A program made the translations under genes and the position numbers. The notes under the pieces were generated by a model. The model saw only the letters and a list, made by a program, of their open reading frames with translations, was not told the DNA's origin and searched no databases. Shown here one piece after another: positions 3,814 to 22,446 of a stretch of DNA of 23,067 nt (positions are counted from its first letter, which is position 1; each line of letters starts with the position of its first letter). This DNA comes from a virus, in the IMG/VR virus record IMGVR_UViG_3300046012_000157, positions 1-23,067 of that record. One strand, 5' to 3'.

Positions 3814-4316
3814 TGGGGGCGGACGCACCCCGCAAGTTCACGGAAGCCGACAAGGCCCGTATCGTCACCGCGCTCGCGGCGAACGGTGGGAACATCAAGC
3901 GCACGGCCCGAGAGATGGGCCTGAGCCCGACCACCGTTCGTCGCTACCGCGACAAGTTCGATCATGGCACCGGCCCGTCAACTGCGGTGGTAGCGCGCGT
4001 CGCAGGTGAGTTCGTTGAGGACGCCACCCGAATCCGCGACAAGGCGATGCTCTCACTGGAGCGCCGCATCGACGCGGAGGAGATCAAGGCGTCGGAACTG
4101 ATTACGGCCCTGGGAGTGCTGACCGACAAGGTCCGCCTCGCCGAGGGCCTCGCCACATCGAAGGTCGAGCACAGTTCGGCCTTCCCGCCCCCTGACGAAC
4201 TGCAGGCCATCCTGTCGGGCGTCGTACAGGGCGCCATCGCCGCGGCCGAGCGCCGGGACGGTGAGATCGTGGACGCACAGATCGTGGAAGTCATCGAGCT
4301 TCCCGAAACCACCTGA
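3813..4316 (+). CDS. Helix-turn-helix protein, possible terminase small subunit
   Basis: This is a 167-aa protein with a homeodomain-like helix-turn-helix near the N-terminus: GNIKRTAREMGLSPTTVRRY (residues about 27-47) has the classic helix-turn-recognition helix pattern. A charged helix follows, then a segment (IKASELITALGVLTDKVRL) resembling the middle helix of small HTH proteins that serve as terminase small subunits in many Gram-positive phages. The tail is acidic (EIVDAQIVEVIELPE). The start overlaps the portal stop by one base (TGATG), so it is translationally coupled. Small terminases normally lie upstream of the large subunit, so a place after the portal is odd. Another small subunit may sit left of the window, and this protein could instead be a late-gene regulator or head DNA-binding protein. 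The HTH is seen; the packaging role is inferred. Confidence 0.85.
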   Translation: MGADAPRKFTEADKARIVTALAANGGNIKRTAREMGLSPTTVRRYRDKFDHGTGPSTAVVARVAGEFVEDATRIRDKAMLSLERRIDAEEIKASELITALGVLTDKVRLAEGLATSKVEHSSAFPPPDELQAILSGVVQGAIAAAERRDGEIVDAQIVEVIELPETT

Positions 4317-4387
4317 TTCCACACCCTGCGGAATCGGGCCATTTGCGGAACAAGCTTCGGCACTCCGCCCTACAAGGGAGCCATCAC

Positions 4388-5386
4388 ATGGCAGACACGT
4401 CTATCGACGTGGCAGCGGCACAGGCAGCACTCGACGCGGCCGGCGGTATGCCGGACCAGTTCGTCGCCCCCACTCCAGATCCGTGGGCGGCGGCACCCGC
4501 AACGAACACGCCAGACCCTGAGCCCACTCCTGACGCACCGCCTGCACCGGCGGCCGACGACGCCCCACCCGCGCCCGACGCGGACACGGAGCCGGACTTC
4601 GGCAGCTTTACGCAGATCGACGCGTCCACGCTGACCCCCGAGCAGCAGCAGATGCAGCGGTCCTTGCAGGCCGACTACACCCGCAAGATGCAGGAGGCAG
4701 CGCCCTGGAGAAAGCTGGCAGAGGAGAGCGGCATCTCGTCCCCGGACGAGTTCAAGCAGGCCGCCGAAGTCTTCCAGCGCCTACAGGACCCTCGCAACTG
4801 GCCGACGATCCACGGCGAGCTGACGGAGTACATGCAGCAGTACGGCATGACCCCGGCGCAGGCTCAGGCCGCGGCGTCCGACCAGCTGATGAATCTGGCC
4901 CCCGACACACCGCCGGAGCCGGACTACAGCGGGTACAACCCCGACGAGGCAGATCCTTCCACCGGACCGCTGATGCGGCAGATTCAGCAGCTCTCGAACC
5001 AGGTCGCGCAGATGCAAGCGCAGACCACTCAGGAGCAGCAGAGTCGGCAGCAACAGGCCCAGTGGAACGCGGCAGCACAGGCACTGACATCGCAGGAGAA
5101 CCACATCAAGGCTCAGAACCCCCACTACGGGGACGATGAGATCACCGCGATCTACAACCTGATGGGCACGGACGGGAATCTCGTCGCCGCCCAGCAGAGG
5201 TTCGAGAGCATGATCGGTGCTCAGGTGTCCAAGTACATCGCAGGCAAGACAGGCGCAGCCCAGGGCACACCCGCCCCGGTCGGCGGCGGCGGAGTCATCT
5301 CCACCCCGTCCCAGCCCGTCATGACCCGCGAGGAGGGACACCGGGCCGCGATGGCCCATGTGGCAGCCCTGGATAGGGCCGAATGA
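4388..5386 (+). CDS. Scaffolding protein
   Basis: This 332-aa protein sits directly before the major capsid gene, the standard place for the scaffold that templates procapsid assembly. The N-terminal third is acidic, Pro/Ala/Asp-rich and probably disordered. A helical core follows (TPEQQQMQRSLQADYTRKMQ), then a Gln-rich coiled coil (about residues 195-235: MRQIQQLSNQVAQMQAQTTQ). The C-terminus holds a short positively charged helix-rich end (MTREEGHRAAMAHVAAL), as expected for a coat-binding segment. The start at 4388 is chosen because AAGGGAG lies at 4374-4380 with seven bases of spacing. The upstream in-frame start at 4343 has no such site. I see no capsid protease in the window or protease motif in this protein, so the scaffold is more likely expelled than digested. 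Confidence 0.88.
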   Translation: MADTSIDVAAAQAALDAAGGMPDQFVAPTPDPWAAAPATNTPDPEPTPDAPPAPAADDAPPAPDADTEPDFGSFTQIDASTLTPEQQQMQRSLQADYTRKMQEAAPWRKLAEESGISSPDEFKQAAEVFQRLQDPRNWPTIHGELTEYMQQYGMTPAQAQAAASDQLMNLAPDTPPEPDYSGYNPDEADPSTGPLMRQIQQLSNQVAQMQAQTTQEQQSRQQQAQWNAAAQALTSQENHIKAQNPHYGDDEITAIYNLMGTDGNLVAAQQRFESMIGAQVSKYIAGKTGAAQGTPAPVGGGGVISTPSQPVMTREEGHRAAMAHVAALDRAE

Positions 5387-5413: not shown

Positions 5414-5426
5414 AGTGACGCGACCA

Positions 5427-6659
5427 ATGGCCGCAGATCTCACCTCGTTGTCGCAGGTGCTCAAGGAGTTCTACCTGACTCCTCTCGCCGAGCAGCTGAA
5501 CAACGAGAACATGGTCGCTTCCCTGCTCGAAGTGACAGCGGAAAACCTGGAGGGCCTCAAGGCCGTCCTGCCGCTGCACTACGGACGCAGCTCGGGCATC
5601 AGCTCGCGCTTCGAGGGCGGCACCATCGCAACTTCGGGCAAGCAGAAGTACGCTCGCGCGGAGTTCGACCTCAAGTACCACTACGCCCGCGTGCAGGTCT
5701 CGGGCCCCTCGATCAGCAAGACCAAGTCTGATCGCGGCTCGTTCCTGCAGGCCCTGAAGTCGGAGCTCGACTTCATCAAGAACGACCTGCAGCTCGACCA
5801 GAGCCGGCAGTATTACGGGGACGGCTCCGGCGTCATCGGCGTCATCGCCTCCACCTCGTCCACGGTCGCCACGCTGACCTCGGCCGAGCCGATCTCGAAG
5901 GGCTACCTGTACATCGGCATGTCCTGCGACACCGGCACCGCCGCAGCCTCGACCAACGACACGACCGCCAACATCATCACCGATCTGGACGTCACTGTCC
6001 CGTCGGTGACGTTCACGTCGGCCGTGGCGAACACCGCCAACAACGTCATCGTCCGCGCTGGCAACGTGTCCAGCTCCACCGACGTCACGACCAACGCTGA
6101 GATCGACGCGGGCCTCCTGCGCCTGCTCGGCACCTCGGTCGTCGGCGGCATCGACCCGACCGCGACGGCTCGCGGGTTCTGGAAGGGCGTCGTGACCGAC
6201 AAGGTCGCTGCCCCGGACATCGCCCTCGACGACCTGATGGTCATGTCGAACACCCTGCAGAACGCGGGCTCCAAGTCCAGCGATCAGGTCGTCATGACGA
6301 CGCCTGGCCTGGTGCGGCGCCTGTTCCAGACCGAGGACTTCAAGGACTCGGTCCGGTTCGTCAACTCGACCACCCTCACCGGTGGCTTCGAGCAGATCTC
6401 CTTCGCGGCTGGTAACGGCCCCATGAAGATCAACGCCGACCGCCTCGCCCCGTGGGGCGACGTCATGTTCGTGGACAAGAGCCAGGTCAAGGTCTTCTCC
6501 CCGGCTGACTGGGACTTCCTGTCCCGCGACGGTCTGACGATTCGCTGGGTGGTGGACGTGGACGCCTTCCAGGCGGTCCTGTTCAAGTACGCCAACATGG
6601 GCACGGCCCGCCGCAACACCAGCGGCCTGCTCAAGAACTACACGGACACCGGCTTCTAA
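5427..6659 (+). CDS. Major capsid protein
   Basis: This 410-aa protein forms the icosahedral shell. The length, the position right after the scaffold, and the composition (no low complexity, mixed alpha/beta, Gly/Thr-rich) fit an HK97-fold coat protein. Features in order are an N-terminal helix (LSQVLKEFYLTPLAEQL); a segment like the extended loop and spine helix of coat proteins (SDRGSFLQALKSELDFIKND); a Thr/Val-rich beta insertion (about residues 150-215); then the axial domain with an acid-hydrophobic helix (DDLMVMSNTLQNAG) and the typical ending (VDVDAFQAVLFKYANMGTA). The N-terminus shows no propeptide that would suggest proteolytic maturation. A strong hairpin follows the stop codon. Assignment to a specific coat family is not possible by eye. 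Confidence 0.9.
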   Translation: MAADLTSLSQVLKEFYLTPLAEQLNNENMVASLLEVTAENLEGLKAVLPLHYGRSSGISSRFEGGTIATSGKQKYARAEFDLKYHYARVQVSGPSISKTKSDRGSFLQALKSELDFIKNDLQLDQSRQYYGDGSGVIGVIASTSSTVATLTSAEPISKGYLYIGMSCDTGTAAASTNDTTANIITDLDVTVPSVTFTSAVANTANNVIVRAGNVSSSTDVTTNAEIDAGLLRLLGTSVVGGIDPTATARGFWKGVVTDKVAAPDIALDDLMVMSNTLQNAGSKSSDQVVMTTPGLVRRLFQTEDFKDSVRFVNSTTLTGGFEQISFAAGNGPMKINADRLAPWGDVMFVDKSQVKVFSPADWDFLSRDGLTIRWVVDVDAFQAVLFKYANMGTARRNTSGLLKNYTDTGF

Positions 6660-9284: not shown

Positions 9285-11353
9285 TGTCGATACTCCCGAT
9301 CCCCCGGGGTGTCCCCTCGCCGCTGTCGCTGGAGACCCTCATGGGGGCACCGGGCGGCATCGCGCGCGACGTCCCGCAGCATGAGATCCAGGACACTGAG
9401 TGCTGGATGCTGCAGGACGCCAACCTGATGGACCCCGGCTTCATCCGCCGCCGCGGGCCGCTGACGGAGACTCCCTCCTCGACGCTGACCAACTCCTTCG
9501 CTCTGGGCGCTGCCCGGGTGCAGGACCCGGCCGGTACCGAGCAGAACTGCGTCTACGTCCGCACCACGACTCCCGGCGGCAAGGTCTACGGGTTCGGCAA
9601 CACGTCGAGCCTGACCTACACCTGGCCGTACACCCCGCTGGCCTCCGGCCCGGCGGACCTGTTCTGCGGCAACGACGCGCTGAACGGCGGCGTCTTCCTT
9701 GGCTCGGCCGAGTCCTACGACAAGCCGACCAACAAGGCCCTCCTGTTCTGGCAGGGCGCCAGCAAGCCCGCGTGGACCAACATCGCCACCACGTCCTTCG
9801 CCCGCGGCGCCACCAGCATTACGGTGACCTCGGACATCGCCCACGTCAGCAGCGGCCACTTCGTGTTCGACACGTCCAGCGGCTCGCTCATCGGCGTGGT
9901 CAAGACCATCGCCAGCAACGTCATCACCCTGAAGGACCCGGCCCTGCTGGGCTCCTCCCAGATCGACGTCCAGCCGCTCCGCGGCATGGGCACCCGTGTG
10001 GCCACCGGCCGCATCACGGTCAGCAAGGACGACACCGCCAAGATCGTCAACGGCGGCCAGACCAAGTTCCGCGCCCAGGGCCTCGACTCCGGCACCTGGG
10101 ACCTGTACACCGCCCAGTACAACTACATCGGGACGGTGGCCTCGGTCGCCTCGGACGCCCAGCTCACGCTGGCGTCGCAGGCCCTCATCTCCCTGGTCAA
10201 CGGCGAGTACATCGCCATCCAGACCAGCGGCTCGTACAGCACGACGCCCTTCGGGTGGCTGAACGCCAACTTCGCCGGGCACCAGTTCTACGCCGACGGC
10301 AACATCCTGCGGTTCTCCTCCTACCTCGACCGCGAGGCGGTGGACACGACGCTGGACGGCGACTTCATCACCTTCTCCGAGGACCCGATCCGGGCCCTCA
10401 TCCCGACCACGGGGTCCCTCGTCGTCGTGACGGAGAACGAGACCTTCGCCCTCGTCGGCGCGGTCGGCACCACGCCGGACCGCTGGCGGGGCACCCGCGT
10501 CAACGACGACGGCACCATCTGCGGCATGTCCGCGGTGACGTACAAAGGCGGGGCGATCTGGGCCGGCAAGCGCGGCATCTGGTTCTACGACGGGGCGTCG
10601 CCGGTGAACATCGGCGCCAAGCTCGACGGGGACTACCGCCTCGGGGTGAGCACGTTCACCAACGCCACCTATCGCGCCTACGGGGCCGTGGTCAAGGACC
10701 ACTACCTCCTGTTCTGCGAGAACGTCAAGTCCGGCGTCTTCGACACGGTCAAGGGCGCCTCCACCGCCCACATCACCCGGCCCACGTTCGTCATCGGGCT
10801 GCTGACAGGTGCCACCAGCATCTGGCGGAACGTGGAGCTGCGCGGTGTCATCAACCCGCCCGACAGGCTCGGGCTGGGCACGGCCCTGTTGCCGATCCAG
10901 ACACTGGAGTCGGCGGTGAACACCACCCGGGTCGTCAAAGGCGACACGCTGTTCGAGGACTCGGGCCAGGACGCCTACACCTGCAACGGTGCGGCGGCCG
11001 CGGGCCCGGACCTGTACGTGGAGAGCAAGAAGTACAGCATGGGCGACGGGCAGCGGCTGAAGCTGTTCCGCATGATCCTCCTGTCCTTCTGGGCCGCCGG
11101 CGGCAACATCAAGCTGGACACCATCGTGGGCCTCAACGGCACCGGGGTGACGTCCAACACGGAGTTCTGGGCTACCACGGCCTTCGTGGACAAGCGGATC
11201 AAGTTCAACGCGCGGAGCCAGTACGTGGCCGTGCGCCTGTACCAGTCCGCGTACCAGGGCAACCCGGCCTCGCTGGTCGCTGCCAACACCACACGTATCA
11301 CGCTCGGCCAGTGGGCTTTCGGCTTCAAGTGGAAGCGACCCGGCCGGGTGTAG
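9284..11353 (+). CDS. Tail hub/nozzle-like protein with beta-propeller features
   Basis: This 689-aa protein most likely builds the short tail below the adaptor. The N-terminus (RDVPQHEIQDTECWMLQDAN) fits the opening of podovirus nozzle and stabilisation proteins. The centre is a chain of beta blades, with the family-like run FAGHQFYADGNILRFSSYLD (from about residue 330), DGDFITFSED, then SLVVVTENETFALVGA. WAGKRGIWFYDGASPVNIG follows, as in propeller proteins that read ground positions against sequence. The C-terminal part is beta-rich with Arg/Lys ends. There is no tail tube or tape measure gene nearby, so a short tail is implied. It overlaps the adaptor by one base and is followed by the fibre gene. 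The role is inferred from pattern and position; a tail-associated lyase is less likely. Confidence 0.75.
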   Translation: MSILPIPRGVPSPLSLETLMGAPGGIARDVPQHEIQDTECWMLQDANLMDPGFIRRRGPLTETPSSTLTNSFALGAARVQDPAGTEQNCVYVRTTTPGGKVYGFGNTSSLTYTWPYTPLASGPADLFCGNDALNGGVFLGSAESYDKPTNKALLFWQGASKPAWTNIATTSFARGATSITVTSDIAHVSSGHFVFDTSSGSLIGVVKTIASNVITLKDPALLGSSQIDVQPLRGMGTRVATGRITVSKDDTAKIVNGGQTKFRAQGLDSGTWDLYTAQYNYIGTVASVASDAQLTLASQALISLVNGEYIAIQTSGSYSTTPFGWLNANFAGHQFYADGNILRFSSYLDREAVDTTLDGDFITFSEDPIRALIPTTGSLVVVTENETFALVGAVGTTPDRWRGTRVNDDGTICGMSAVTYKGGAIWAGKRGIWFYDGASPVNIGAKLDGDYRLGVSTFTNATYRAYGAVVKDHYLLFCENVKSGVFDTVKGASTAHITRPTFVIGLLTGATSIWRNVELRGVINPPDRLGLGTALLPIQTLESAVNTTRVVKGDTLFEDSGQDAYTCNGAAAAGPDLYVESKKYSMGDGQRLKLFRMILLSFWAAGGNIKLDTIVGLNGTGVTSNTEFWATTAFVDKRIKFNARSQYVAVRLYQSAYQGNPASLVAANTTRITLGQWAFGFKWKRPGRV

Positions 11354-11365
11354 GAAGGAGAGCCG

Positions 11366-14300
11366 ATGTCGTTCCTCGACAAGCCCTTGTCTGAGCTGAC
11401 CACCGCGGAACTGCAGAAGCTCATCTCCGACGAAGTAGCACGCCAGACCCCTGCCATCCCGTCGGGGGTTCTGGCGCTGCTCGACTCGGCCACTCCGGTC
11501 ACGGTCCCGGCCACGCAGGACGACGCGGACGTGCTGACCTACGACGCCTCCAAGGGCTCGTACATCGCCGCACCGGTGCCGTCGGCCAGCCCGGTGACCC
11601 CGCCCCAGGCCAACACTCCGGTCGTCGCCGGCGGCGTCGGCTACATCGTGGCCTCTTGGACCGCGGTGACGAACGACACGCCTGTGGACTACGACGTCTA
11701 CATGGACACCAACAGCGGCTTCACGCCGGGCCCGGGCACCTTCATCGCCACGACCCCGGCCACCATGCTTTTCATCCGCGCCACGTCTGACGGCACCAAG
11801 CTGGACTACGACGCCACCTACTACGTGGTCGTCATCGCCCGCTCGGACACGCTGTCTTCGACCCAGAGCGTCCAGAGCGCCGGTGTCTCGCCGGTCCGCG
11901 TGGACCACGAAGACATCGCCGTCAACGCCGTCCATGCGGACACCATCGACGCCCTCGCGGTCACCACCGGCAAGCTCGACACGGCCGTGGTCCTGTCGGG
12001 CCTCATCCAGACCGCAGAGACCGGCGCCCGCATCGTGATCCAAGGCGGCGCAGGCAGCGACGGCGGCATCACGCTCTACCAGTCCGACGGCGAGACCATC
12101 GCCGCCCGGCTCCCCACGGACGGCTCCACGGCCACGTTCAACGGCAACGTCGTCACCGGCGGCCTGATCGTCACCGACACCGCTGTCATCCAGGGCGCCA
12201 ACAACTACATGGACCGCGCCTCGGTGCTGACCCTGACCGAGAAGCTGGGCGACCCGGGCTTCACGCCCCTGGTCACTGCGAACTACGACATGGTCCCCCT
12301 CGACTACGCGCTGTCCTCGCCGACGTTCTACCAGACGTCCTACGGCACAAACTACACCGCCACCGGCGGCGCGGGCGGGGCCACTCCGGTGTTCCTTGAG
12401 GTCGAGCAGCACATCAACAACTCCAACGGCCACTACGCCATCACCTTGCGGGAGTATGACTACACCACCGGCGCCTCCACCGGCCGGGCCGTCATCTTGG
12501 AGTCGGGTGAGACCTTCGCTACCGGCGTTTCGTGCCCCATCGGAGCCTGCAAGATCGGTTCCAAGATCTACGCGTTCACCTGGCACCGCACCGGCGTCTT
12601 GTTCATCTGGACGATCACGGCCAGCACCTTCGCAATCGACGTGTCCAACTCGTACTCGGGCACCGGCCTGCAGGGCTGCAACACCAGCGGCTTCGCCACC
12701 CTCGACCACAACGTGGCCCTGGGCTCGGACGGGACCAACCCTTGGCTGTTCTCGTACACCACGGCCACCAAGCTGCCCAACCGGCGCATGGTCACGATCA
12801 CGTCCCCGTCCAGCCCCACCCTCGGATCGGCCACGGACTTCGCATCCGGCTCGGTCAAGTTCAACTCGGCGGGCGACGCCAACAACCCCGGCACCGGCGC
12901 CCAGCCCGTCGGCATCGCCGGCGCGGCGTGGGACCCCGTCGCCGGTACTTGGTACGTCGCCTACAACTACGACACCGCCAGCTCCTCGGGCTCCCTGCTG
13001 CAGAAGTACAAGCAGTCGGACAGCTCCATCGTCGCCAAGCAGGAGATCTGGCAGGACGCCAGTGAGGACGTGGATTCGGGCGACGCCACCTGCTCTGGCT
13101 TGACCTACGACGGCACCAACTACTGGTGGTCGGAGATGGGCTTCGGCTCGGGCCAGAACTTCCAAGCGTCCATGCGGAAGCTGACGAACCTGACGTGGGA
13201 CTACACCCTCGGCAGCAACATGTACATCGGCACGTCCTGGGTCAAGGACACCAGCTATGGCACCGTCAGCTGCGGCCACGACCCGGTCGCCTCGGTGGCC
13301 TACGTCGGCAACCGCGGCTCGGGCACGGTGGACGGCACGTTCGCCCTGACTTGGACCGCGACCACCACCGGCACGTCCATGGTGACCGGCAACCGGGCCA
13401 TCCTGGGAATCGTGCTCCACTCCTCCGACAACACCATCGACTCGGTGACCGGCGGCGGGGTGACGTGGGTGCAGGACGGCTACGGCCACAACACCGACGG
13501 CGAGGTCGTGTACTGGTTCTCCGCCGAGCTTCCCTCGGGGCTGGCCACCGGCACGACCCTCACCATCGTGGAGCACGCTGGCGGCGACGTCTTCGAGAAG
13601 CGCCGCTGGTCCCTGATGGAGGTGTCCGGCATCACGGCTGGCCCGCCCGGCGGTACGCACACGCACGGCTCCAGTGGCACCAGCACCACGCCCTCCCCGG
13701 GCGCCACGTCGGGCTCGGCGAACTCCGGCGACTTCGCTGTGTCGGGCATCGCGTTCAAGAACGGCTCGGTCACAGGCGACTGGACCGCGACCTCCGGCTG
13801 GACCAAGGAGAACACCCTCTCGGCCAACAGCCGGTCGGGCTGGTTCGAGTACAAGATCCTCGCCTCCTCGGGCGCCGTCACCGGCAACGTCACCACGACG
13901 CTGACGGCAATACAGTGGGCCGCTGCGGTGGTCTACTACACGCAGGCGGGCGGCGGCTCCTCGCCGCTCCTTGTACACGCACCGGCGCACGGCTTGGTGG
14001 TGGACCAGGAGGTCTACTTCACGAACTCGGGCGGCGCGCTGCCGACCGGGCTCTCGGCCAACACGCCCTACTACGTCATCTCCACGTCGCTCGGCGTCGA
14101 TGACTTCAAGGTGTCGGCCACCCGCGGCGGCACGGTGGTCAACACCACCGGCACCGATTCGGGCACGACCACCCTGCACATCATCACGGAGACCAAGGTG
14201 TCCCCGCGGGCCGTTGTCTCGCTGCTGTCCGGCATCACTGCCGCTCCGCAGATGCGGCAGAAGATCCGCACGATGAACGCCGGCGTCCCGTCGGCGGCCT

Positions 14301-15319
14301 CGGCCGTCCGCACCTACGCGCAGGTCGTCACCGCTGTCCCGGCCACCACGGCGCTCCGCTACCAGTCCCTGTCGGGCGGGTACGTGGACTCCGAGACCGC
14401 CGCGCATGTGGTGTCGCTCCTGTACAACGACGCGGGCAACGCCCCCAACCCGACCAACAACTTCCCCGGTGCGTCACCGGCCTCCATCACGGCTTCGGCC
14501 ACGGCGGCCACGGCGGCCTGGAAGCTGCAGGGTGACGGAGTGTTCCGTGTGCCGACGTTCACCAAGGCCCAGCGCCTGGCGACGCCGACCACCGGCGACA
14601 TGCACTTCGACACCACCACCGGGGCCAAGGGCCTGGCGGTGTACGACGGCAGCGACTACGTCCACATGCCCAAGAGCTGGTACGCCTCCGGCGGCGAGGG
14701 CCTCCGGGACGCCATGTTCGCTCTGGCCGCGGTCAACACCCGGGTCCGGGCCCAGAACTTCCCCATGTGGGGAGCCATCGCACCGGGCAACTCGCAGGCG
14801 TTGACCAACCAGCGGCTTGTCTACCTCGCGGTCTACTGGCCGGGCGGGTCCTGCACCGGCATCGATTGGATTCAGTCGGTGGTCGGCTCATACACCGACT
14901 CGACGCCCCACTCGGGCGTCCAGCTGCTCGGCGGTTCCTCCACGGGGCCGCTGCTGTCCACGACCACGACGGTCACCCGCATCACCGGCTCGAACGCGAC
15001 CAGCGCCTCGATCTGGAAGGGGTCGGCCGGACACCGGGTCAAGGACTTCACGGGCGGCCCGATCACACTCGCGGCCGGCATCTACTACGTCAACCTGTTC
15101 TGGTTCCAGACGGCGAACACCACGTCGCCGGAGCTCTCCGGTATGGCGGCCACTGGCAACGACTACGTGAACGACGCGTCCCAGACTCAGGCGCTGCTCG
15201 CTCCCGTCGGGTTCCCCTTGGTGGGCACCGTTGCCAGCGCGGGGGACCTGCTCGCCTCGGACACCATCGCAACGTGGGTCCTGACCACCACAAACGTGCC
15301 CTGGGTAGGGCTTCACTAG
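11366..15319 (+). CDS. Large mosaic tail fibre / receptor-binding protein
   Basis: This 1317-aa protein is probably the fibre or spike that recognises the host. Domains in order are a short helical N-terminus (LSELTTAELQKLISDEVARQ) for tail attachment; a fibronectin III-like domain (about 80-175); a shaft region with coiled repeats (DHEDIAVNAVHADTIDALAV, then TATFNGNVVTGGLIVTDTAV); a long beta region that reads like a propeller (about 290-640); a jelly-roll-like domain (about 655-760); a Gly/Ser/Thr/His linker (about 762-785); and a small HGLVVDQEVYF...GALPTGLSANTPYYVI domain (about 869-942). A second shaft end (GDMHFDTTTGAKGLAVYDGS, about 1079-1098) leads to a final beta domain to residue 1317, the likely receptor-binding head. 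No catalytic motif of a depolymerase is evident. The start follows AGGAAGGAG. Confidence 0.83.
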   Translation: MSFLDKPLSELTTAELQKLISDEVARQTPAIPSGVLALLDSATPVTVPATQDDADVLTYDASKGSYIAAPVPSASPVTPPQANTPVVAGGVGYIVASWTAVTNDTPVDYDVYMDTNSGFTPGPGTFIATTPATMLFIRATSDGTKLDYDATYYVVVIARSDTLSSTQSVQSAGVSPVRVDHEDIAVNAVHADTIDALAVTTGKLDTAVVLSGLIQTAETGARIVIQGGAGSDGGITLYQSDGETIAARLPTDGSTATFNGNVVTGGLIVTDTAVIQGANNYMDRASVLTLTEKLGDPGFTPLVTANYDMVPLDYALSSPTFYQTSYGTNYTATGGAGGATPVFLEVEQHINNSNGHYAITLREYDYTTGASTGRAVILESGETFATGVSCPIGACKIGSKIYAFTWHRTGVLFIWTITASTFAIDVSNSYSGTGLQGCNTSGFATLDHNVALGSDGTNPWLFSYTTATKLPNRRMVTITSPSSPTLGSATDFASGSVKFNSAGDANNPGTGAQPVGIAGAAWDPVAGTWYVAYNYDTASSSGSLLQKYKQSDSSIVAKQEIWQDASEDVDSGDATCSGLTYDGTNYWWSEMGFGSGQNFQASMRKLTNLTWDYTLGSNMYIGTSWVKDTSYGTVSCGHDPVASVAYVGNRGSGTVDGTFALTWTATTTGTSMVTGNRAILGIVLHSSDNTIDSVTGGGVTWVQDGYGHNTDGEVVYWFSAELPSGLATGTTLTIVEHAGGDVFEKRRWSLMEVSGITAGPPGGTHTHGSSGTSTTPSPGATSGSANSGDFAVSGIAFKNGSVTGDWTATSGWTKENTLSANSRSGWFEYKILASSGAVTGNVTTTLTAIQWAAAVVYYTQAGGGSSPLLVHAPAHGLVVDQEVYFTNSGGALPTGLSANTPYYVISTSLGVDDFKVSATRGGTVVNTTGTDSGTTTLHIITETKVSPRAVVSLLSGITAAPQMRQKIRTMNAGVPSAASAVRTYAQVVTAVPATTALRYQSLSGGYVDSETAAHVVSLLYNDAGNAPNPTNNFPGASPASITASATAATAAWKLQGDGVFRVPTFTKAQRLATPTTGDMHFDTTTGAKGLAVYDGSDYVHMPKSWYASGGEGLRDAMFALAAVNTRVRAQNFPMWGAIAPGNSQALTNQRLVYLAVYWPGGSCTGIDWIQSVVGSYTDSTPHSGVQLLGGSSTGPLLSTTTTVTRITGSNATSASIWKGSAGHRVKDFTGGPITLAAGIYYVNLFWFQTANTTSPELSGMAATGNDYVNDASQTQALLAPVGFPLVGTVASAGDLLASDTIATWVLTTTNVPWVGLH

Positions 15320-15331
15320 AAAGGAGGACCG

Positions 15332-16060
15332 ATGGCTGCAGACACCACGTCAGTCGGAACCACGCCCTATGAGGGCCCAGACCCCGGCTTGGGGCAGTAC
15401 AGCATCCTCCAGAACCAGGCGCACAAGGCGTTCACCGACGCCCAAACGCAGATCCAGAACCAGCGGGACACGTTGTACCGCGGGGCTGGCGTTTCCCAGT
15501 CGGGAGACAGCTGGATCGTGGACCCGAACGGCCACGGCACCTACCAGTCGATCCTCCAGGGCAACGCCCAGCAGGGCGCGGCCGACGCGGCCGGTATCGG
15601 GGCCATGGGCTTCGGTGGCGGGCTCAGTATGCAGGCGCAGGAGGCGGCCCAGACGGGCTACTCCCAGCACGCGCAGGACTGGGCCGATCAGATGACCGAC
15701 TCGACCACCACGCTGCGTAACAGGGACACGGCCAACGTGAACCTGGAGAACGACACCAACTTCAACAACCTGATGACCGACATTCAGACGGCCATTGCGA
15801 ACCACCAGTTCAACCCGGCCAACTACACCGGCATCACCATCCCTGGCTACGACGTGGCCGGAGACCTGGCGACGATCCCCGTGTCCACGGTGGACGACCC
15901 GGGCAACCCGGACTTCATCGGAGGCTCGGGCGGTGGCGGCGGTGGCGGGATGCACGGTGGCGTCAGGCTGGCGGACCACCCGCACTACGCGGACGCAGTC
16001 AAGGCCGGATACGGCAAGAGCTACGCCGCATGGGTCAAGGCAGGAAGGCCCCCGAAATGA
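15332..16060 (+). CDS. Putative internal virion protein with C-terminal HPHY/GRP tag
   Basis: This 242-aa protein is mostly helix, rich in Ala, Gln, Asn and Asp (LQNQAHKAFTDAQTQIQNQR), with a Gly-rich turn in the middle (GIGAMGFGGGLSMQAQEAAQ). This resembles internal core proteins of short-tailed phages. Residues about 198-206 are a Gly run, and residues 216-242 are a compact tag, HPHY-x4-KAG-x5-AAW-x3-GRP-x2, that recurs at the end of the gene at 21479-22177. AAGGAGG upstream of the ATG fixes the start. It opens the ejection block directly after the fibre gene. Function is inferred from context. Confidence 0.8.
   Translation: MAADTTSVGTTPYEGPDPGLGQYSILQNQAHKAFTDAQTQIQNQRDTLYRGAGVSQSGDSWIVDPNGHGTYQSILQGNAQQGAADAAGIGAMGFGGGLSMQAQEAAQTGYSQHAQDWADQMTDSTTTLRNRDTANVNLENDTNFNNLMTDIQTAIANHQFNPANYTGITIPGYDVAGDLATIPVSTVDDPGNPDFIGGSGGGGGGGMHGGVRLADHPHYADAVKAGYGKSYAAWVKAGRPPK
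15977..16057 (+). other. C-terminal tag, copy 1 (27 codons)
   Basis: This is the last 27 codons of the 242-aa gene. It shares 13 of 27 residues without gaps with the last 27 codons of the 232-aa gene further downstream: HPHY at 1-4, KAG at 9-11, AAW at 17-19 and GRP at 23-25. A Gly-rich linker precedes it. The first 12 bases (CACCCGCACTAC) are identical in both copies. The GRP end resembles the core of an AT-hook. Confidence 0.75.
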
Positions 16061-16069
16061 GAGTGAACC

Positions 16070-17461
16070 ATGCCTAGAACTTCAGGCGAGACCGGCAGCG
16101 GCAGCGGACAGCCGGCCGGGGCCCTTCAGTGGCCCAAGGGCACCAAGTGGGCCTACTTCAAGAAGCTCCCGCCCGGGATCACCACCGGCAACGGCAAGGG
16201 CGCGGGCTGGGTCAGGGTCGGTTCCGACAACTGGCACAAGATCCAGTCGTACAACAACGGCAGCCACCGTCATGTCTCGGCTGGCGGCGGCCACGGCGGC
16301 CACGGTACCACGTCGGTCCCGAACACCCAGTACCACCCGTCCCGCAAGGCGACGCAGCAGTACAACCCGTCGAGCCCTCGGGGCCAGATCATCCTGAACA
16401 ACGGCAGCACGTCCTCCGACGGGAAGAAGAACCCGGGCGTTGACCCGGGCCGCGGCGGCGAGCAGGGTGCCAAGCACAACGGCACCGCTGGCGACCAGAC
16501 GCCGGGCGGCGACCGCAACCCCGGCAACGCGCCCAAGGACAAGACGAACAAGACCACCAAGACCACGACCCAGCAGGAGAAGCAGTGGTCGAAGTTCATG
16601 GGCAACCCGAACACGCAGTCGCTCATCCCTCTGAAGGACGCGGCCGCACAGGCGGGCCTGCAGTACGACGGCCAGATCAAGGACGCTCGGGTGGCCAAGG
16701 CCGACCAGATCGCCCAGGCTGGCCAGAACCTGCAGGACATCAAGACCTGGTACTCGCACCTCATCAACATGAACGCCGGCGCCGCCACGGCCAACGACCA
16801 GGCTGTCGGCGCGGAGACCTCTGGCAACAACGCTGACCTGCAGGCGGCCCTCGCGGCCATCGGTGGCAGCGCCAATGCCGGCTCCGCCTCGGTGGCGGAC
16901 CACGGCCTCCAGGCCAACCGGTTCGCGCGGCAGATGGGGCAGAACGCCGACGACTACTTCGGCCAGCAGGCGGTCGCCCTCGGGCAGAACGAGGACGCGC
17001 AGCGGCTGGCACAGAAGGCTCTCGACAGCCAGACGTCGCAGTCGCTCGACTCGAACCTGCAGAACCTGATCGGCCAGCGCGGACAGGCCCTGACGACCGC
17101 CCAAATGGCGATCATCGCGGCCAACAACGCGGCCAAGCAGGGCAACTTCGGCAACCGCATCAGCAAGGCCCAGAGCATCGCAGGTCTCCTGCAGCTCGGC
17201 CTCAACGCCAAGATCAGCGCGGCACAGCTGCGCCAGATGGGCGGCGGCGGTGGCGCCCACCCGGGCTTCACCAAGTTCTCGTCGCAGACCCCGGCGCAGC
17301 AGCAGCAGACGCTGACCATGCTGCTCCAGGGCGGCAAGGACGCACAGGGTAACCCCATCGCCATCCCGCTTGTGCAGGCCGCCCAGCGCGCCAAGCTCGC
17401 GGGCTACGACGCGGCGCCCGGCTCCACGCTGTGGAAGCTGCTCGCCACGTACACGCACTAG
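16070..17461 (+). CDS. Putative internal virion (ejection) protein, Ala/Gln-rich
   Basis: This 463-aa protein has two parts. Residues 1-150 are low complexity: Gly, His, Ser, Thr and Lys, with a Trp-rich start (WPKGTKWAYFKKLPPG), a His-Gly stretch (HRHVSAGGGHGGHG) and a Lys/Thr linker (NKTTKTTTQQEKQ). Residues about 160-440 are helical, rich in Ala and Gln (LQAALAAIGGSANAGSASVA, ADDYFGQQAVALGQNEDAQR), as in podovirus core proteins that form the internal cylinder and later pass into the cell. No enzyme motif is seen. It lies between two other candidate ejection proteins. The ribosome site (GAGAG) is weak, and the gene starts nine bases after the previous stop. Confidence 0.75.
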   Translation: MPRTSGETGSGSGQPAGALQWPKGTKWAYFKKLPPGITTGNGKGAGWVRVGSDNWHKIQSYNNGSHRHVSAGGGHGGHGTTSVPNTQYHPSRKATQQYNPSSPRGQIILNNGSTSSDGKKNPGVDPGRGGEQGAKHNGTAGDQTPGGDRNPGNAPKDKTNKTTKTTTQQEKQWSKFMGNPNTQSLIPLKDAAAQAGLQYDGQIKDARVAKADQIAQAGQNLQDIKTWYSHLINMNAGAATANDQAVGAETSGNNADLQAALAAIGGSANAGSASVADHGLQANRFARQMGQNADDYFGQQAVALGQNEDAQRLAQKALDSQTSQSLDSNLQNLIGQRGQALTTAQMAIIAANNAAKQGNFGNRISKAQSIAGLLQLGLNAKISAAQLRQMGGGGGAHPGFTKFSSQTPAQQQQTLTMLLQGGKDAQGNPIAIPLVQAAQRAKLAGYDAAPGSTLWKLLATYTH

Positions 17462-17475
17462 AAGGGAGGTGAGGC

Positions 17476-20469
17476 ATGGCCACACCGGTCATCGGCCTGT
17501 TCGGCTCCAACGTGGGCAAGGGCATCAAGCTCAAGGACCCGTACCGCGACCGGAAGCCGGTCGGCGTGATGAGCCTGACCGACCTGCAGGCGCCCGCAGT
17601 CAAGGCGGCGCCGACCATCAAAGCCTCACCGATCCACCCAACTCAGACCCAGCTGAATGGCGGCGTATCATCCTCCTCCAGCTCCTCGTCGTCGGAGATC
17701 CCGACGAACTTGGGCCCTACCTCGGGCGGTGACTCCGGCAACGAGCTGGGTCACCTGCTCGGGGTGGCGGCGGGCGGCTTGGAGGGCTTCATCGGCCACC
17801 TGGGCTCCGACGTGATTCACACGGCCATGGGCCTGCCGGTCGGCGTGGCCTACATGATGGAGCACCCCATCGCGGGGCTGGAGGGCGCCGTCAAGATGAC
17901 GTGGGCCGACTGGTCTCCGCTGTACCACGCGGGCGCTGCCCTGGCCACCGGCAACTTCGACTCGGCCTGGGCTGACACCAGCCTCTGGGCCAACAACTTC
18001 TACGAGCACCCGCTGGCGCCGCTCCTCGACGTCGCCGGGCTGCTCACCTTCGGCGCTGGCACAGCTGCGCGCGGGGCTGCCATCGCTGGCAAGCTCGGCG
18101 AGGCGGCCAACGCCGCGGACTCCGTGGCCCTCGGGGCCGCAGCCGCCCGCGAGACCCTCGCTGCTGGCGGTGTCCGTCAGTCGCTCGCCTACGGCGGCGC
18201 GGTGGACCGGACGGCCGCGCAGGTCGGTGAGGTGGCCGGTAGCTACTCGGCCGGTCTCGCCACCAATACGTGGTGGATGAAGGCAGAGCGGTTCGCCTCC
18301 CCGTCCGCCTACGCCGCCAAGACCTACGGCAAGCTGGCCGACACGCTCGGCTGGAACGTGACCCCGGCCATGCGGCAGGAGTTCATCAACGGCGCCATGG
18401 CCAACGACCCGCTGGCCCGCCGGATCTTCGACTCGGCCACCGACATCCCCATGTACGCCGACCGCTCCTCGAACCCGTGGACCCGGTGGCGTCAGGCGGC
18501 CATCGAGAAGCACATCACCGAGCCCCTCGCGCAGAGCAAGCTCGGCAAGGTCGCCCGGGCCGACAAGGTCATGGGACGCGACGCCCACTACCGCAAGCTC
18601 GCCCGGCAGGACGCCGGCGTGCGGCGTGCGGCGATGAGGTCGGTCATCCCGAACGAGATCTCGGCCCTGCTCGGCAAGCTCCACGACACCGGTGTGGCCA
18701 TCCGCAACATCGACCCGGTCACCCGCCTCCAGCACATCGTGCCGGGGATGCGGACCGGACTGGTCGGGCAGGCGCACATCGTCCGCCCTGCGGGCGCCCT
18801 CGGAAGCGCGGAGCTGGACGCCCAAGTGGCGGCCATGCGGCAGGCGGGCTACCAGTTCGTCGCCTCAGACGCCCACACCGCGGGTCGGCTCGCTCCGGCC
18901 TACGCGAAGGTGGACAAGGCAGGCGAGCCCGGGTTCAATGAGTTCCTGAAGAAGGACTGGTCTGCGGCGAACACCACCAACGACCCGGCCCTCGCGCTGA
19001 AGGATGCCGACGGTAACTTCCGCGTCGTGAGCTCCCCCGACAAGGTCGCCAAGGAGGCGCTGTTCTCCCACGCGGTGCTCAAGACCCTCATCTCCCAGCC
19101 GACCAAGGTGTGGAAGTACCTGATTCTGGGCACCAGCCCGCGGTACTTCGTGAACAACTTCGTCGGCAACACCCTGATGCTGGCGGCGGCCACCAACCCG
19201 GTCGCCGTGGTCAGGGGCTTCAACGACTACATGCGAACGGTCCGCCACGCCAATGCGGACTGGGCCCAGCAGCTGTCCGACCTGTCCGCCAAGGGCGCGT
19301 CGGCCGAGGACATCGCTCTGGCTAAGGCCCTGCACAACCTGCGGGGCGGCGGCAACTGGATGAACAAGTGGTTCGCCGGGGAGTACGGCTTCGGCCAGAT
19401 GAACATGCTCCATGAGGACACCAAGTGGGTCAAGAACCCACTGACCGGCAAGGACGAGCTGGTGCCGCGCAACGCGTCGCTGCTCGACAAGGCCAACTCG
19501 GGCCGGTTCACCTCGCTGCACCACATCACCAACAAGTACGCCGACATGCCCCAGCGGTACATGTCGCTCATCTACTCGATGAAGCGGATGCCGGAGTTCC
19601 AGCAGGCATACGCCCAGCTGCGGGCTGGCGGGATGCGCCACTTCGAGGCCGAGCAGAAGGCTGCCGACATGGCGGCCGAGAGCCCGGCCGTCCGGCAGAT
19701 CGTGCGGTCCCAGGTCCACCACATGCTGGGCCAGTACCACACCTTCACGCACGGCGAGCGCGCGGTCACCGCGGTGGTCCCTTTCTACGCGTGGGACAGG
19801 GCCATCGCCCTCCACATGAAGGAGCTGATCGTCAACCAGCCGTACAAGGTCGCCATGGGTGCGGCCATCGGTACGCTGGGCGGGGTCAAGTCCGAGGAGA
19901 TCCTCGGGCAGGTGCCCGACTTCATGCTGGCGGCCATCCCGGCCAAGATCATGAGCGGTCCGCTCGGCGCCCTGATGGGCAAGAACGGCTCCCGCATCTC
20001 GGTCATCAACGCGGCCTCCCTGAACCCCTATGGCACCATCGCCGACATCACCGGCATGGGGCTGGCGGCTGGCGGCATCGGTCACTTCAAGACCGGCGAC
20101 TCGCTGGGCGCATCGCTGAACCCGGTGCTCCAGTCTGCGGCCACGCAGATCACTGGCACCAACCTGCAGACCGGCCTGCCTACCAAGGCCACGCCGGGCG
20201 GCCCGCTCGTCGGCACCTACCTCGGTGTCTTCGGCAACGTGCCGCAGCTCAACTTGGCCAAGGCGCTGGTGGGCATGGAGGGTGGGTCGCTGACCAGCGC
20301 GGGCAAGCCGACGCTGTACGCGCACAACATCCAGAACCCGCTGTCGAGCTGGCTCGGCCTGTCGATCCGGCAGGTGGACCTCGGCACAGCCAAGTCGCTG
20401 TACGACAAGCAGGAGGGCATCAAGCACCCCCGCAAGAAGAAGTCCATGTTCGATGTCCCCGGCCTGTAG
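17476..20469 (+). CDS. Giant internal virion/ejection protein
   Basis: This 997-aa protein is the largest of the internal set and the best candidate for the protein that leads DNA into the cell. It starts after GAAGGGAGGTGA. Residues 65-73 are nine Ser in a row, a disordered linker after the N-terminal peptide. Then come amphipathic, Ala/Gly-rich helices (GLEGFIGHLGSDVIHTAMGL). Near residues 545-575, KVWKYLILGTSPRYFVNNFV followed by a GN turn and a hydrophobic stretch resembles a motif of large phage polyvalent/ejection proteins. PFYAWDR near residue 770 and the hydrophobic hairpin after it (PYKVAMGAAIGTLGG) fit the same family. The C-terminus (SSWLGLSIRQVDLGTAKSLY) is also family-like and ends basic. 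There is no tape-measure repeat, so a long tail is not supported. Family by pattern memory; role inferred. Confidence 0.75.
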   Translation: MATPVIGLFGSNVGKGIKLKDPYRDRKPVGVMSLTDLQAPAVKAAPTIKASPIHPTQTQLNGGVSSSSSSSSSEIPTNLGPTSGGDSGNELGHLLGVAAGGLEGFIGHLGSDVIHTAMGLPVGVAYMMEHPIAGLEGAVKMTWADWSPLYHAGAALATGNFDSAWADTSLWANNFYEHPLAPLLDVAGLLTFGAGTAARGAAIAGKLGEAANAADSVALGAAAARETLAAGGVRQSLAYGGAVDRTAAQVGEVAGSYSAGLATNTWWMKAERFASPSAYAAKTYGKLADTLGWNVTPAMRQEFINGAMANDPLARRIFDSATDIPMYADRSSNPWTRWRQAAIEKHITEPLAQSKLGKVARADKVMGRDAHYRKLARQDAGVRRAAMRSVIPNEISALLGKLHDTGVAIRNIDPVTRLQHIVPGMRTGLVGQAHIVRPAGALGSAELDAQVAAMRQAGYQFVASDAHTAGRLAPAYAKVDKAGEPGFNEFLKKDWSAANTTNDPALALKDADGNFRVVSSPDKVAKEALFSHAVLKTLISQPTKVWKYLILGTSPRYFVNNFVGNTLMLAAATNPVAVVRGFNDYMRTVRHANADWAQQLSDLSAKGASAEDIALAKALHNLRGGGNWMNKWFAGEYGFGQMNMLHEDTKWVKNPLTGKDELVPRNASLLDKANSGRFTSLHHITNKYADMPQRYMSLIYSMKRMPEFQQAYAQLRAGGMRHFEAEQKAADMAAESPAVRQIVRSQVHHMLGQYHTFTHGERAVTAVVPFYAWDRAIALHMKELIVNQPYKVAMGAAIGTLGGVKSEEILGQVPDFMLAAIPAKIMSGPLGALMGKNGSRISVINAASLNPYGTIADITGMGLAAGGIGHFKTGDSLGASLNPVLQSAATQITGTNLQTGLPTKATPGGPLVGTYLGVFGNVPQLNLAKALVGMEGGSLTSAGKPTLYAHNIQNPLSSWLGLSIRQVDLGTAKSLYDKQEGIKHPRKKKSMFDVPGL

Positions 20470-20478
20470 GAGGCGCAA

Positions 20479-21468
20479 GTGAACATCGCGGAGCGCCGCC
20501 AGTACATCGTCAAGCAGGCCCGGAGACTCGGTCTCGACCCGGCCGCCGTCATTGCAGTCGCCTCACGCGAGGGGCTCTCTGGCGGCGTCGGGGACGGGGG
20601 CCACGCGTTCGGACCCTTCCAGATGAACGACGCGGGTGGCGTCCTCACGGGCGACCCGAACCCGCAGCACCACACCAACGCCTACGCCTGGTCGAACCAG
20701 GGCATCCTCCGCGCGCTCCGGGCCCAGGCCACGGTGGCCGGTGGGCTGACCGGCAGGGCCGCGGTCCACGCGTTGGTGTACAACTACGAGCGCCCGGCCG
20801 ACAAGGCGGGCGAGTTCACCGGGGCCATGGCTGCCCTCGGGCACGTCGGGGCGTCCTCCGGGACCGTCCCTGGCGCCCAGCCCGGCGCACCCGGCTCGGG
20901 TGTCGTGCAGACCGGCAAGCACACCCAGTTCGACACCGGCCAGTTCAAGAACCAGCTGGCCATGAGCATGATGCAGGACGCCACCACCCGGGCACAGGGC
21001 GGGACACCGCCCCCGATGCTCGACACCATCGCCCAGCTGCGGGCGGCCGCCACCACGCGGGTCAACAACGCGGCCGGGCCCGGCGGTATCCCCACCGGCG
21101 GTGGCGCAGGCACAGGCATCGGGGCCCACGCGGCCCGCATCGCGGCCAACCAGATCGGCACCCCCTACGTGTGGGGCGGCGAGAGCAAGAGCGGGTTCGA
21201 CTGCTCGGGCCTCGTCCAGTTCACCTACGCCAAGCTCGGCATCCAGCTCCCGCGCACCGCCGCGGAGCAGGGCACAGCCGGCCGCGCCGTGAGCTTCAAG
21301 AACCTGAAGGCCGGGGACCTCCTGGTCGAGAACAACGGCGACCACGTCGTCATGTACGCGGGGAACGGGCGGGTAGTCGCAGCGCCTCACTCTGGGCAGA
21401 ACGTCCAGTACCAGCCCCTCAACTACTTCCCATCCTCGCAGTACCACGCGCGCCGCATCGTCGGCTAG
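20479..21468 (+). CDS. Virion peptidoglycan hydrolase: lysozyme-like plus NlpC/P60
   Basis: This 329-aa protein has two cell-wall domains. The N-terminal part (about 15-110) fits a lysozyme/transglycosylase fold: PAAVIAVASREGLSGG with likely catalytic Glu31, then HAFGPFQMND and VHALVYNYERP. After a Gly/Pro/Gln linker, residues 213-329 form an NlpC/P60 cysteine peptidase: QIGTPYVWGG, GFDCSGLVQF (Cys242), LKAGDLLVEN and DHVVMYAGNGRVV (His289). The usual third catalytic His before Ala-Pro is replaced by Ala301, with His304 just after. It starts with GTG, with AGGAGG five bases before. No signal peptide or membrane segment is seen. Lying among internal proteins rather than with the lysis genes, it probably opens the wall during DNA entry. 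It could also be a tail-tip lysin. Confidence 0.88.
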   Translation: MNIAERRQYIVKQARRLGLDPAAVIAVASREGLSGGVGDGGHAFGPFQMNDAGGVLTGDPNPQHHTNAYAWSNQGILRALRAQATVAGGLTGRAAVHALVYNYERPADKAGEFTGAMAALGHVGASSGTVPGAQPGAPGSGVVQTGKHTQFDTGQFKNQLAMSMMQDATTRAQGGTPPPMLDTIAQLRAAATTRVNNAAGPGGIPTGGGAGTGIGAHAARIAANQIGTPYVWGGESKSGFDCSGLVQFTYAKLGIQLPRTAAEQGTAGRAVSFKNLKAGDLLVENNGDHVVMYAGNGRVVAAPHSGQNVQYQPLNYFPSSQYHARRIVG

Positions 21469-21478
21469 AAGGAGAGAC

Positions 21479-22177
21479 ATGAACAACACCACAGGACCCC
21501 TCGGGGGACCCACAGGCGGCGGAGTTGACCAGACCGACCTGACCAACGGTGGCGCCGGTGGCGGGGGTGGCGGCTACACCGGCCTGCAGGGAGTCCTCGA
21601 CTTCCTCGGCGGCTCGGGCGGCATCAATGCCACCCAGTACCAGAACATGATGAACGGCTACGGCGGCTACAAGGTCGGCGGCCAGATGTACAAGGTGCCC
21701 GGGTCCAAGGGCGCCCTCTCGGGGCTGTCGCCGTGGGCGATCCAGTACCTGATGAAGAACATCATGAAGCAGGACACCCCGCAGCAGACCAGCCTGACCG
21801 GCCTGACCGGTGACGCCCTGTTCCAGGCCACCCTGATGAACGCCGCGCACAACGCTGCGCCGGCGCTGTACCACCTGAACACCGCCATGACCGACGGCGG
21901 CCTGAAGGACGAGAACGGTGCCAGCGAGACCGCCGAGCAGTACCTGAACGCCTTGTTCCAGGGCGGCGCGCTGGGCAGCAACAAGACCTACCGCAACAAG
22001 AACTACGGTGAGGACGGCTACACCGCACCGGCTGGCGGCAACCAGCACACCGGCGGCGGCGGCCTCGACGGCCACCCCAACGCCACCACGGCACACCCGC
22101 ACTACCGCGCCTACATCAAGGCTGGCGGCACCATGACGATGGCGGCTTGGAACCACCACGGCCGACCGAAGCAGTGA
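21479..22177 (+). CDS. Putative virion protein with C-terminal HPHY/GRP tag
   Basis: This 232-aa protein starts after AAGGAGAG, closely following the hydrolase. The N-terminus is Gly/Thr-rich and disordered (about 1-35, with a Gly run). The middle is mostly helix (SPWAIQYLMKNIMKQ, DALFQATLMNAAHNAAPALY, SETAEQYLNALFQGG). Residues about 180-205 form a Gly/His/Asn linker, and residues 206-232 are the second copy of the tag also found on the 242-aa protein (HPHY...KAG...AAW...GRP). The stop overlaps the next start (GTGA). I do not recognise the core. The shared tag and position suggest a virion protein of the same ejection set, but a lysis accessory role cannot be excluded. Confidence 0.78.
   Translation: MNNTTGPLGGPTGGGVDQTDLTNGGAGGGGGGYTGLQGVLDFLGGSGGINATQYQNMMNGYGGYKVGGQMYKVPGSKGALSGLSPWAIQYLMKNIMKQDTPQQTSLTGLTGDALFQATLMNAAHNAAPALYHLNTAMTDGGLKDENGASETAEQYLNALFQGGALGSNKTYRNKNYGEDGYTAPAGGNQHTGGGGLDGHPNATTAHPHYRAYIKAGGTMTMAAWNHHGRPKQ
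22094..22174 (+). other. C-terminal tag, copy 2 (27 codons)
   Basis: This is the last 27 codons of the 232-aa gene. It aligns without gaps to copy 1 at 15977-16057. Outside the four conserved blocks the residues differ (for example GTMTM against YGKSY), and the DNA differs by far more than the shared CACCCGCACTAC start. The similarity is therefore held at the protein level rather than being a recent DNA duplication. Confidence 0.75.
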
Positions 22178-22446
22178 CCGCCGCAGAGCAGGTGAGCGTT
22201 GAGGCGCTCGCCACCCGCGTTGATGGAGGGTTCCGTGAGTTACGCGGAGACATCAAGGCGGTGCTCGCACTGATCGAGCAGCGCAGACTGGACGACGCGA
22301 CGGCCCACGCAACCATGGACCAGCGCATGTCCTCATTCGAGCGAGACCGCAGCGTCGCCGAGGCGTTCTTCAGCTTCGGCCGCTGGATCGGCGCGGCAGC
22401 CTTTGCCAGCGCCGGGCTGGTCATCGCATACCTGTCCTACCACTAG
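22174..22446 (+). CDS. Small membrane protein, possible holin or lysis accessory
   Basis: This 90-aa protein reads from GTG at 22174, overlapping the previous stop as GTGA. An in-frame TTG at 22147 also exists but lacks a good ribosome site. The N-terminal two thirds form a charged, probably coiled-coil helix (VEALATRVDGGFRELRGDIK, then LDDATAHATMDQRMSSFERD). One hydrophobic segment at the end (IGAAAFASAGLVIAYL) is followed by SYH, so the protein is likely tail-anchored with its bulk in the cytoplasm. This layout fits small actinophage lysis-cassette membrane proteins, and the endolysin follows shortly. Codon 22240-22242 is TTA, one of only two seen in the window. Function is inferred from neighbours. 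Confidence 0.7.
   Translation: MTAAEQVSVEALATRVDGGFRELRGDIKAVLALIEQRRLDDATAHATMDQRMSSFERDRSVAEAFFSFGRWIGAAAFASAGLVIAYLSYH

Follow-up and report, generated by a model that had tools for sequence, protein, structure and literature searches.

A common C-terminal tag on two otherwise dissimilar proteins of a podovirus-like phage, with a possible role in loading or anchoring internal proteins

How short-tailed phages pick the proteins that are packed into their heads is poorly known outside a few models (T4, T7, and P22). In the DNA analyzed here (the window, a whole IMG/VR record of 23,067 bases from a podovirus-like phage), two proteins that we call P1 and P5 end in a common 27-residue tag, which raises the question of what this tag is and why it stands on both. 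The observation is real, well defined, and modestly surprising.

The phage is short-tailed, with a probable actinobacterial host. Its genes include a terminase end, a P22-type portal (PF16510, 3e-21), a helix-turn-helix protein, a likely acidic scaffold, a podovirus capsid protein, and an SU10-type adaptor (PF24175, 4e-20), and this combination of portal, capsid, and adaptor constitutes a P22-like head module. The phage records closest to the portal and capsid, at 20–32% identity, are those of Arthrobacter phage Jasmine (a podovirus (PMC5513430)) and its relatives, Microbacterium phage Shocker, Cellulosimicrobium phage DS1, and uncultured podoviruses. After the head genes come a large tail-fiber-like protein, so called from its size and position, and then P1 to P5, a block flanked by the tail genes and the lysis region.

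4343–5386, + strand: likely scaffolding protein, strongly acidic (pI 4.5, net charge −24), between the portal and capsid genes
5415–6659, + strand: major capsid protein (profile match to NCBIfam capsid_maj_Podo, NF033394, 3e-41)
15332–16060, + strand: P1, 242 aa, with an acidic body (pI 4.2 without the tag); the orthologue in a relative (see below) is 54% identical, tag included
15920–15976, + strand: Gly-rich linker of P1, GGSGGGGGGGMHGGVRLAD (translation)
15977–16057, + strand: tag copy 1, HPHYADAVKAGYGKSYAAWVKAGRPPK and then a stop, the C terminus of P1 (residues 216–242; translation)
16070–17461, + strand: P2, 463 aa, basic, without the tag; orthologue in the relative 51% identical
17476–20469, + strand: P3, 997 aa, large block protein without the tag, with weak C-terminal profile similarity to the Jasmine gp28 family
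20479–21468, + strand: P4, 329 aa, NlpC/P60 peptidase domain (domain match), without the tag
21479–22177, + strand: P5, 232 aa, Gly-rich; the relative's orthologue aligns to about residue 184–200 and then continues without the tag
22028–22093, + strand: Gly-rich linker of P5, PAGGNQHTGGGGLDGHPNATTA (translation)
22094–22174, + strand: tag copy 2, HPHYRAYIKAGGTMTMAAWNHHGRPKQ and then a stop, the C terminus of P5 (residues 206–232; translation); absent from the relative's orthologue

The translations bear out the original prediction of a shared C-terminal end: the tags of P1 and P5 are identical at 13 of 27 positions without a gap, they occupy the extreme C terminus of each protein after a Gly-rich linker, and the two genes are separated by three others, encoding 463, 997, and 329 aa. 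The remainder of the two proteins had been described as dissimilar, and whole-protein BLASTP agreed, aligning the tag (13/27, 30 bits, E = 1e-5) and beyond it only short scraps, the best of which was Gly-rich and 8 residues long. P1 and P5 are not full-length paralogs, as this alignment is confined to the tag and the P5 of the relative is tagless.

A short stretch beside low-complexity sequence might resemble another by accident, yet such a coincidence is scarcely credible here. When all pairs of C termini of the window proteins were scored over 27 residues (BLOSUM62), the P1/P5 pair reached 68, and the next best pair reached 13. None of 1,000,000 shuffles attained 68 (the maximum was 54), and the tag is conserved in the relative. 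On the shuffles, the pair ranking, and this conservation, chance resemblance was rejected, and the tags, as judged from their residues, are homologous.

The DNA encoding the two tags is identical at only 44 of 81 positions (54%), and the codons match at 6 of the 13 identical residues, so that one tag is not a recent DNA copy of the other. The 12 bases encoding HPHY (CACCCGCACTAC) are identical in the two tags of the window and in that of the relative and are absent elsewhere in the window and in both stretches of the relative; because these codons are the ones common in the phage, the identity says little. The next ORF may begin at a GTG that overlaps the stop codon of P5 (GTGA at 22174), so the tag ends cleanly at a gene border. 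This ORF (22174–22446) encodes 90 aa with a hydrophobic C-terminal stretch and is holin-like by position; its counterpart was not found in the relative.

The relative, IMGVR_UViG_3300046511_000298 (32.5 kb), was found in a capsid search (capsid 83% identical) and is collinear with the window through the head, tail, and P1–P5 genes, which confirms the reading frames of both P1 and P5. Its P1 (252 aa) ends in HPHYAAAVKAGFKGNYNQWVAQGKPKGRH, a tag in which AAW has become NQW and GRP has become GKP; all three tags retain HPHY, KAG, W, G, and P. The body of its P5 (192 aa) aligns with that of the window P5 and stops after GGHAPKGGKKGKGK, a lysine-glycine tail in place of the tag. Because P5 of the relative lacks the tag while P1 keeps it, paralogy of P1 and P5 is excluded, and P5 alone has either gained or lost the module, as seen in this comparison of two genomes. 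Identity between the P1 proteins of the two phages is 15/27 in the tag and 102/188 in the rest, so the tag is not better conserved than its carrier; across genes, identity is 35–64% in the block and 58–83% in the head module.

How far does the tag extend beyond these two phages? The original prediction had proposed a pattern search of phage proteins; the searches made here found only one other carrier, the relative, and the tag is not widespread among phages. The idea of a portable module is borne out in that the P5 orthologues form one with-and-without pair. The comparison supports a C-terminal module that has been gained or lost and that appears to behave like a swappable end-piece.

The searches behind this statement covered several collections. 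A DNA pattern fitting all three tags matched only the relative and one chance sequence in IMG/VR, and its 13 matches in GTDB contigs were due to chance, none having the motif at the C terminus of a plausible gene. A profile of the three tags, for which the relative served as positive control (E = 6e-23), gave only fragmentary chance matches in 395 class-level and 396 phylum-level actinobacterial genomes. With the same profile, only the tagged proteins rose above background among 4,993 ORFs drawn from the window and fetched loci, at ∼72 bits compared with <9 for all other ORFs of the loci and for shuffled ones. These tag scans cover the spacing of the three tags, and differently spaced tags would escape them. 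No match was obtained by tblastn of P1, P5, P3, and the tag against 50,697 phage records or by single-protein scans of IMG/VR with P1, P5, and P3, and a two-sequence profile of P3 picked up no sequence but the relative in IMG/VR and had no match in GTDB contigs or the 395 genomes. In addition, 18 related genomes or fragments were screened roughly for common C-terminal ends, with a greedy ORF choice that dropped the window P5, and no second case of the tag appeared. All tag carriers found thus come from two metagenomic fragments.

An AlphaFold model built with the three tag sequences agrees with the two short helices that had been predicted, placing them at residues 10–17 and 24–30 of a 35-residue fragment with the KAG turn between them (pLDDT 74); the model of whole P1 (pLDDT 46) was too poor for use. 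Foldseek found nothing significant for the tag model (best E = 4.5). The tag had been said to match no named motif, and indeed nothing in Pfam, PHROGs, or the PDB sequences matched it significantly, one PHROG match (E = 0.97) being due to chance. The suggested likeness to an AT-hook did not hold up: both have GRP with nearby basic residues, but no Arg precedes it in the tags (AGRP, HGRP, and QGKP), and no Pfam family matched at E up to 10. The AT-hook, which has an RGRP core with basic flanks, is not supported as the identity of a tag that reads GKP in the relative.

Each tag contains 4–5 K/R and 0–1 D/E residues, for a net charge of +4 to +5. In the relative, the tagless P5 has GGKKGKGK at its end, and its last 30 residues have a net charge of +4, compared with +3 to +5 in the tagged proteins. 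Since the tagless protein keeps a positive end, a positive C terminus is the common feature, and the folded tag one way to make it. The P5 body has a pI of 5.4.

The arrangement of the block bears on where these proteins act. Its order of small, medium, and large proteins followed by a cell-wall enzyme is the same in Jasmine, Shocker, and DS1, and it places P1 to P5 in the internal-protein position of podovirus ejection proteins. The ejection proteins of P22 (gp7/gp16/gp20) and T7 (gp14/gp15/gp16) likewise follow the head and tail genes as a small-medium-large set that includes a peptidoglycan enzyme; unlike P1 and P5, they have no common C-terminal tag in those parts of the sources that were available. 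At the level of sequence, the C terminus of P3 was weakly similar to the Jasmine gp28 family in a profile comparison (E = 7e-4, probability 27%), and P1 and P2 had no detectable similarity to their Jasmine, Shocker, and DS1 counterparts by the same approach. P1, P2, and P5 had no significant match to any PHROG or Pfam family. From gene position, we infer that P1 and P5 are virion (internal or ejection) proteins.

The reading that we prefer, and hold tentatively, is that the tag serves to anchor or load internal proteins by fastening them to an acidic partner within the head. It would be a small, homologous, basic two-helix module that a flexible Gly-rich stalk connects to two unrelated proteins at the place where podoviruses keep their internal (ejection) proteins. 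While the head assembles, P1 and P5, with their acidic or Gly-rich bodies, would be held by way of the tag to one and the same acidic partner, for which the acidic scaffolding protein is a candidate, as are the portal-core assembly and the packaged DNA. P1 and P5 would thereby be built into the particle and kept there until ejection, the tag being what puts or holds them there. What this account builds on was observed directly, namely the homology of the tags, their position, the linkers, the basic charge, and the presence or absence of the tag on P5 orthologues.

Homology beyond chance, the two helices, basic tags on acidic bodies, and the order of the block all count in favor of loading or anchoring. 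Against it count the absence of profile similarity between P1 and the small proteins of Jasmine, Shocker, and DS1, a relative whose P5 dispenses with the tag, conservation of the tag no better than that of the rest of P1, and its occurrence in two genomes only. P22 evidence points both ways: incorporation of the ejection proteins needs the scaffold (PMC8402733), and in gp7 and gp20 the N-terminal part is held responsible for incorporation (PMC8402733), which speaks against a C-terminal signal. In T7 gp16, five basic C-terminal residues are required for infectivity (PMC8954989), the basic C terminus being a point of likeness.

Binding to DNA is a somewhat unlikely alternative. The helices and basic end would hold packaged or entering DNA without sequence preference, like the C-terminal part of T7 gp16, and P1 and P5 would travel with the genome. 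The net charge of +4 to +5, the lysine-glycine tail as a replacement in the relative, and the two-helix prediction fit this idea, as does the binding of DNA by T7 gp15 and gp16 (PMC8954989). However, no AT-hook, helix-turn-helix, or other DNA-binding family matched at E up to 10, and the conserved Tyr, Trp, His, and Pro residues fit a specific small fold better than a charge tail.

It is also unlikely, somewhat more so, that the tag reflects 3′-end shuffling with little function, in which recombination at Gly-rich coding DNA would have placed a copied part of one gene on another, where it is tolerated because these Gly-rich ends are free. Such DNA recombines easily, both tags lie downstream of Gly-rich coding stretches, the relative's P5 is without the tag, and the block genes diverge faster than the head genes. 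The amino acid pattern has nevertheless been kept at 44/81 DNA identity and 15/27 identity between the P1 tags, which suggests that selection has preserved the peptide across a long divergence. Binding outside the head, to the host cell wall or to a tail or tip protein, where the tag would help ejected proteins assemble in the envelope near the NlpC/P60 enzyme, is improbable. P5 adjoins the NlpC/P60 gene, and short aromatic and Gly/Pro-rich modules can bind polymers, but no cell-wall-binding family matched the tag.

Known systems offer partial parallels to a loading or anchoring peptide. The P22 scaffolding protein, itself flexible, likewise carries two helices at its C terminus, in the form of a helix-turn-helix coat-binding domain; the P22 element belongs to the scaffold and binds coat, whereas the tag is carried by two proteins of the block. 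In T4, the capsid targeting sequence stands at the N terminus and is cleaved off by the prohead protease, whereas the tags are C-terminal and no window protein scanned matched a prohead protease family, so that a T4-type cleaved targeting sequence was rejected. The comparison with T4 concerns how the peptide works, since its targeting sequence is a short peptide common to the otherwise different internal proteins IPI–IPIII that brings them into the head (PMC3012670). Encapsulin cargo-loading peptides are short, often C-terminal, and load cargo into an HK97-fold shell (PMC11190991). The tag does not resemble the peptides LTVGSLRR or GGDLGIRKL (PMC11190991) and was rejected as one of them, and the shell gene here encodes a podovirus capsid protein, not an encapsulin.

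It is possible, if doubtful, that the tag represents a new means of loading or docking at the C terminus of phage internal proteins. Unrelated proteins of the same virion could then exchange it, a simple polybasic tail could stand in for it, and it would be the phage counterpart of the encapsulin peptides. Its presence on one P5 orthologue and absence from the other form a natural with-and-without pair for the loading or holding of internal proteins. The tag, known from the sequences of two metagenomic fragments, could serve as a packaging handle in actinobacterial phages.

Some minor observations were made in these genomes. In the uncultured podovirus MW202795, two proteins (2332–3453 and 4262–4639) contain common repeats (VxLTxQxxTVTNRAPxV) and end in similar basic tails (RTRKRRRQ and KSRKKRRI), another within-phage C-terminal likeness, made of repeats. 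Segments matching the 1317-aa protein (11366–15319) are reordered or split over genes in the relative (15477–17423, 17445–17855, 17867–18538, and 18632–19543 of its stretch G001), a case of tail-fiber mosaicism. The end of P3 carries a conserved basic-hydrophobic motif in both phages, KKKSMFDVPGL (20434–20466) in the window and RKKNMFTIPGF in the relative (10690–10722 of stretch L029).
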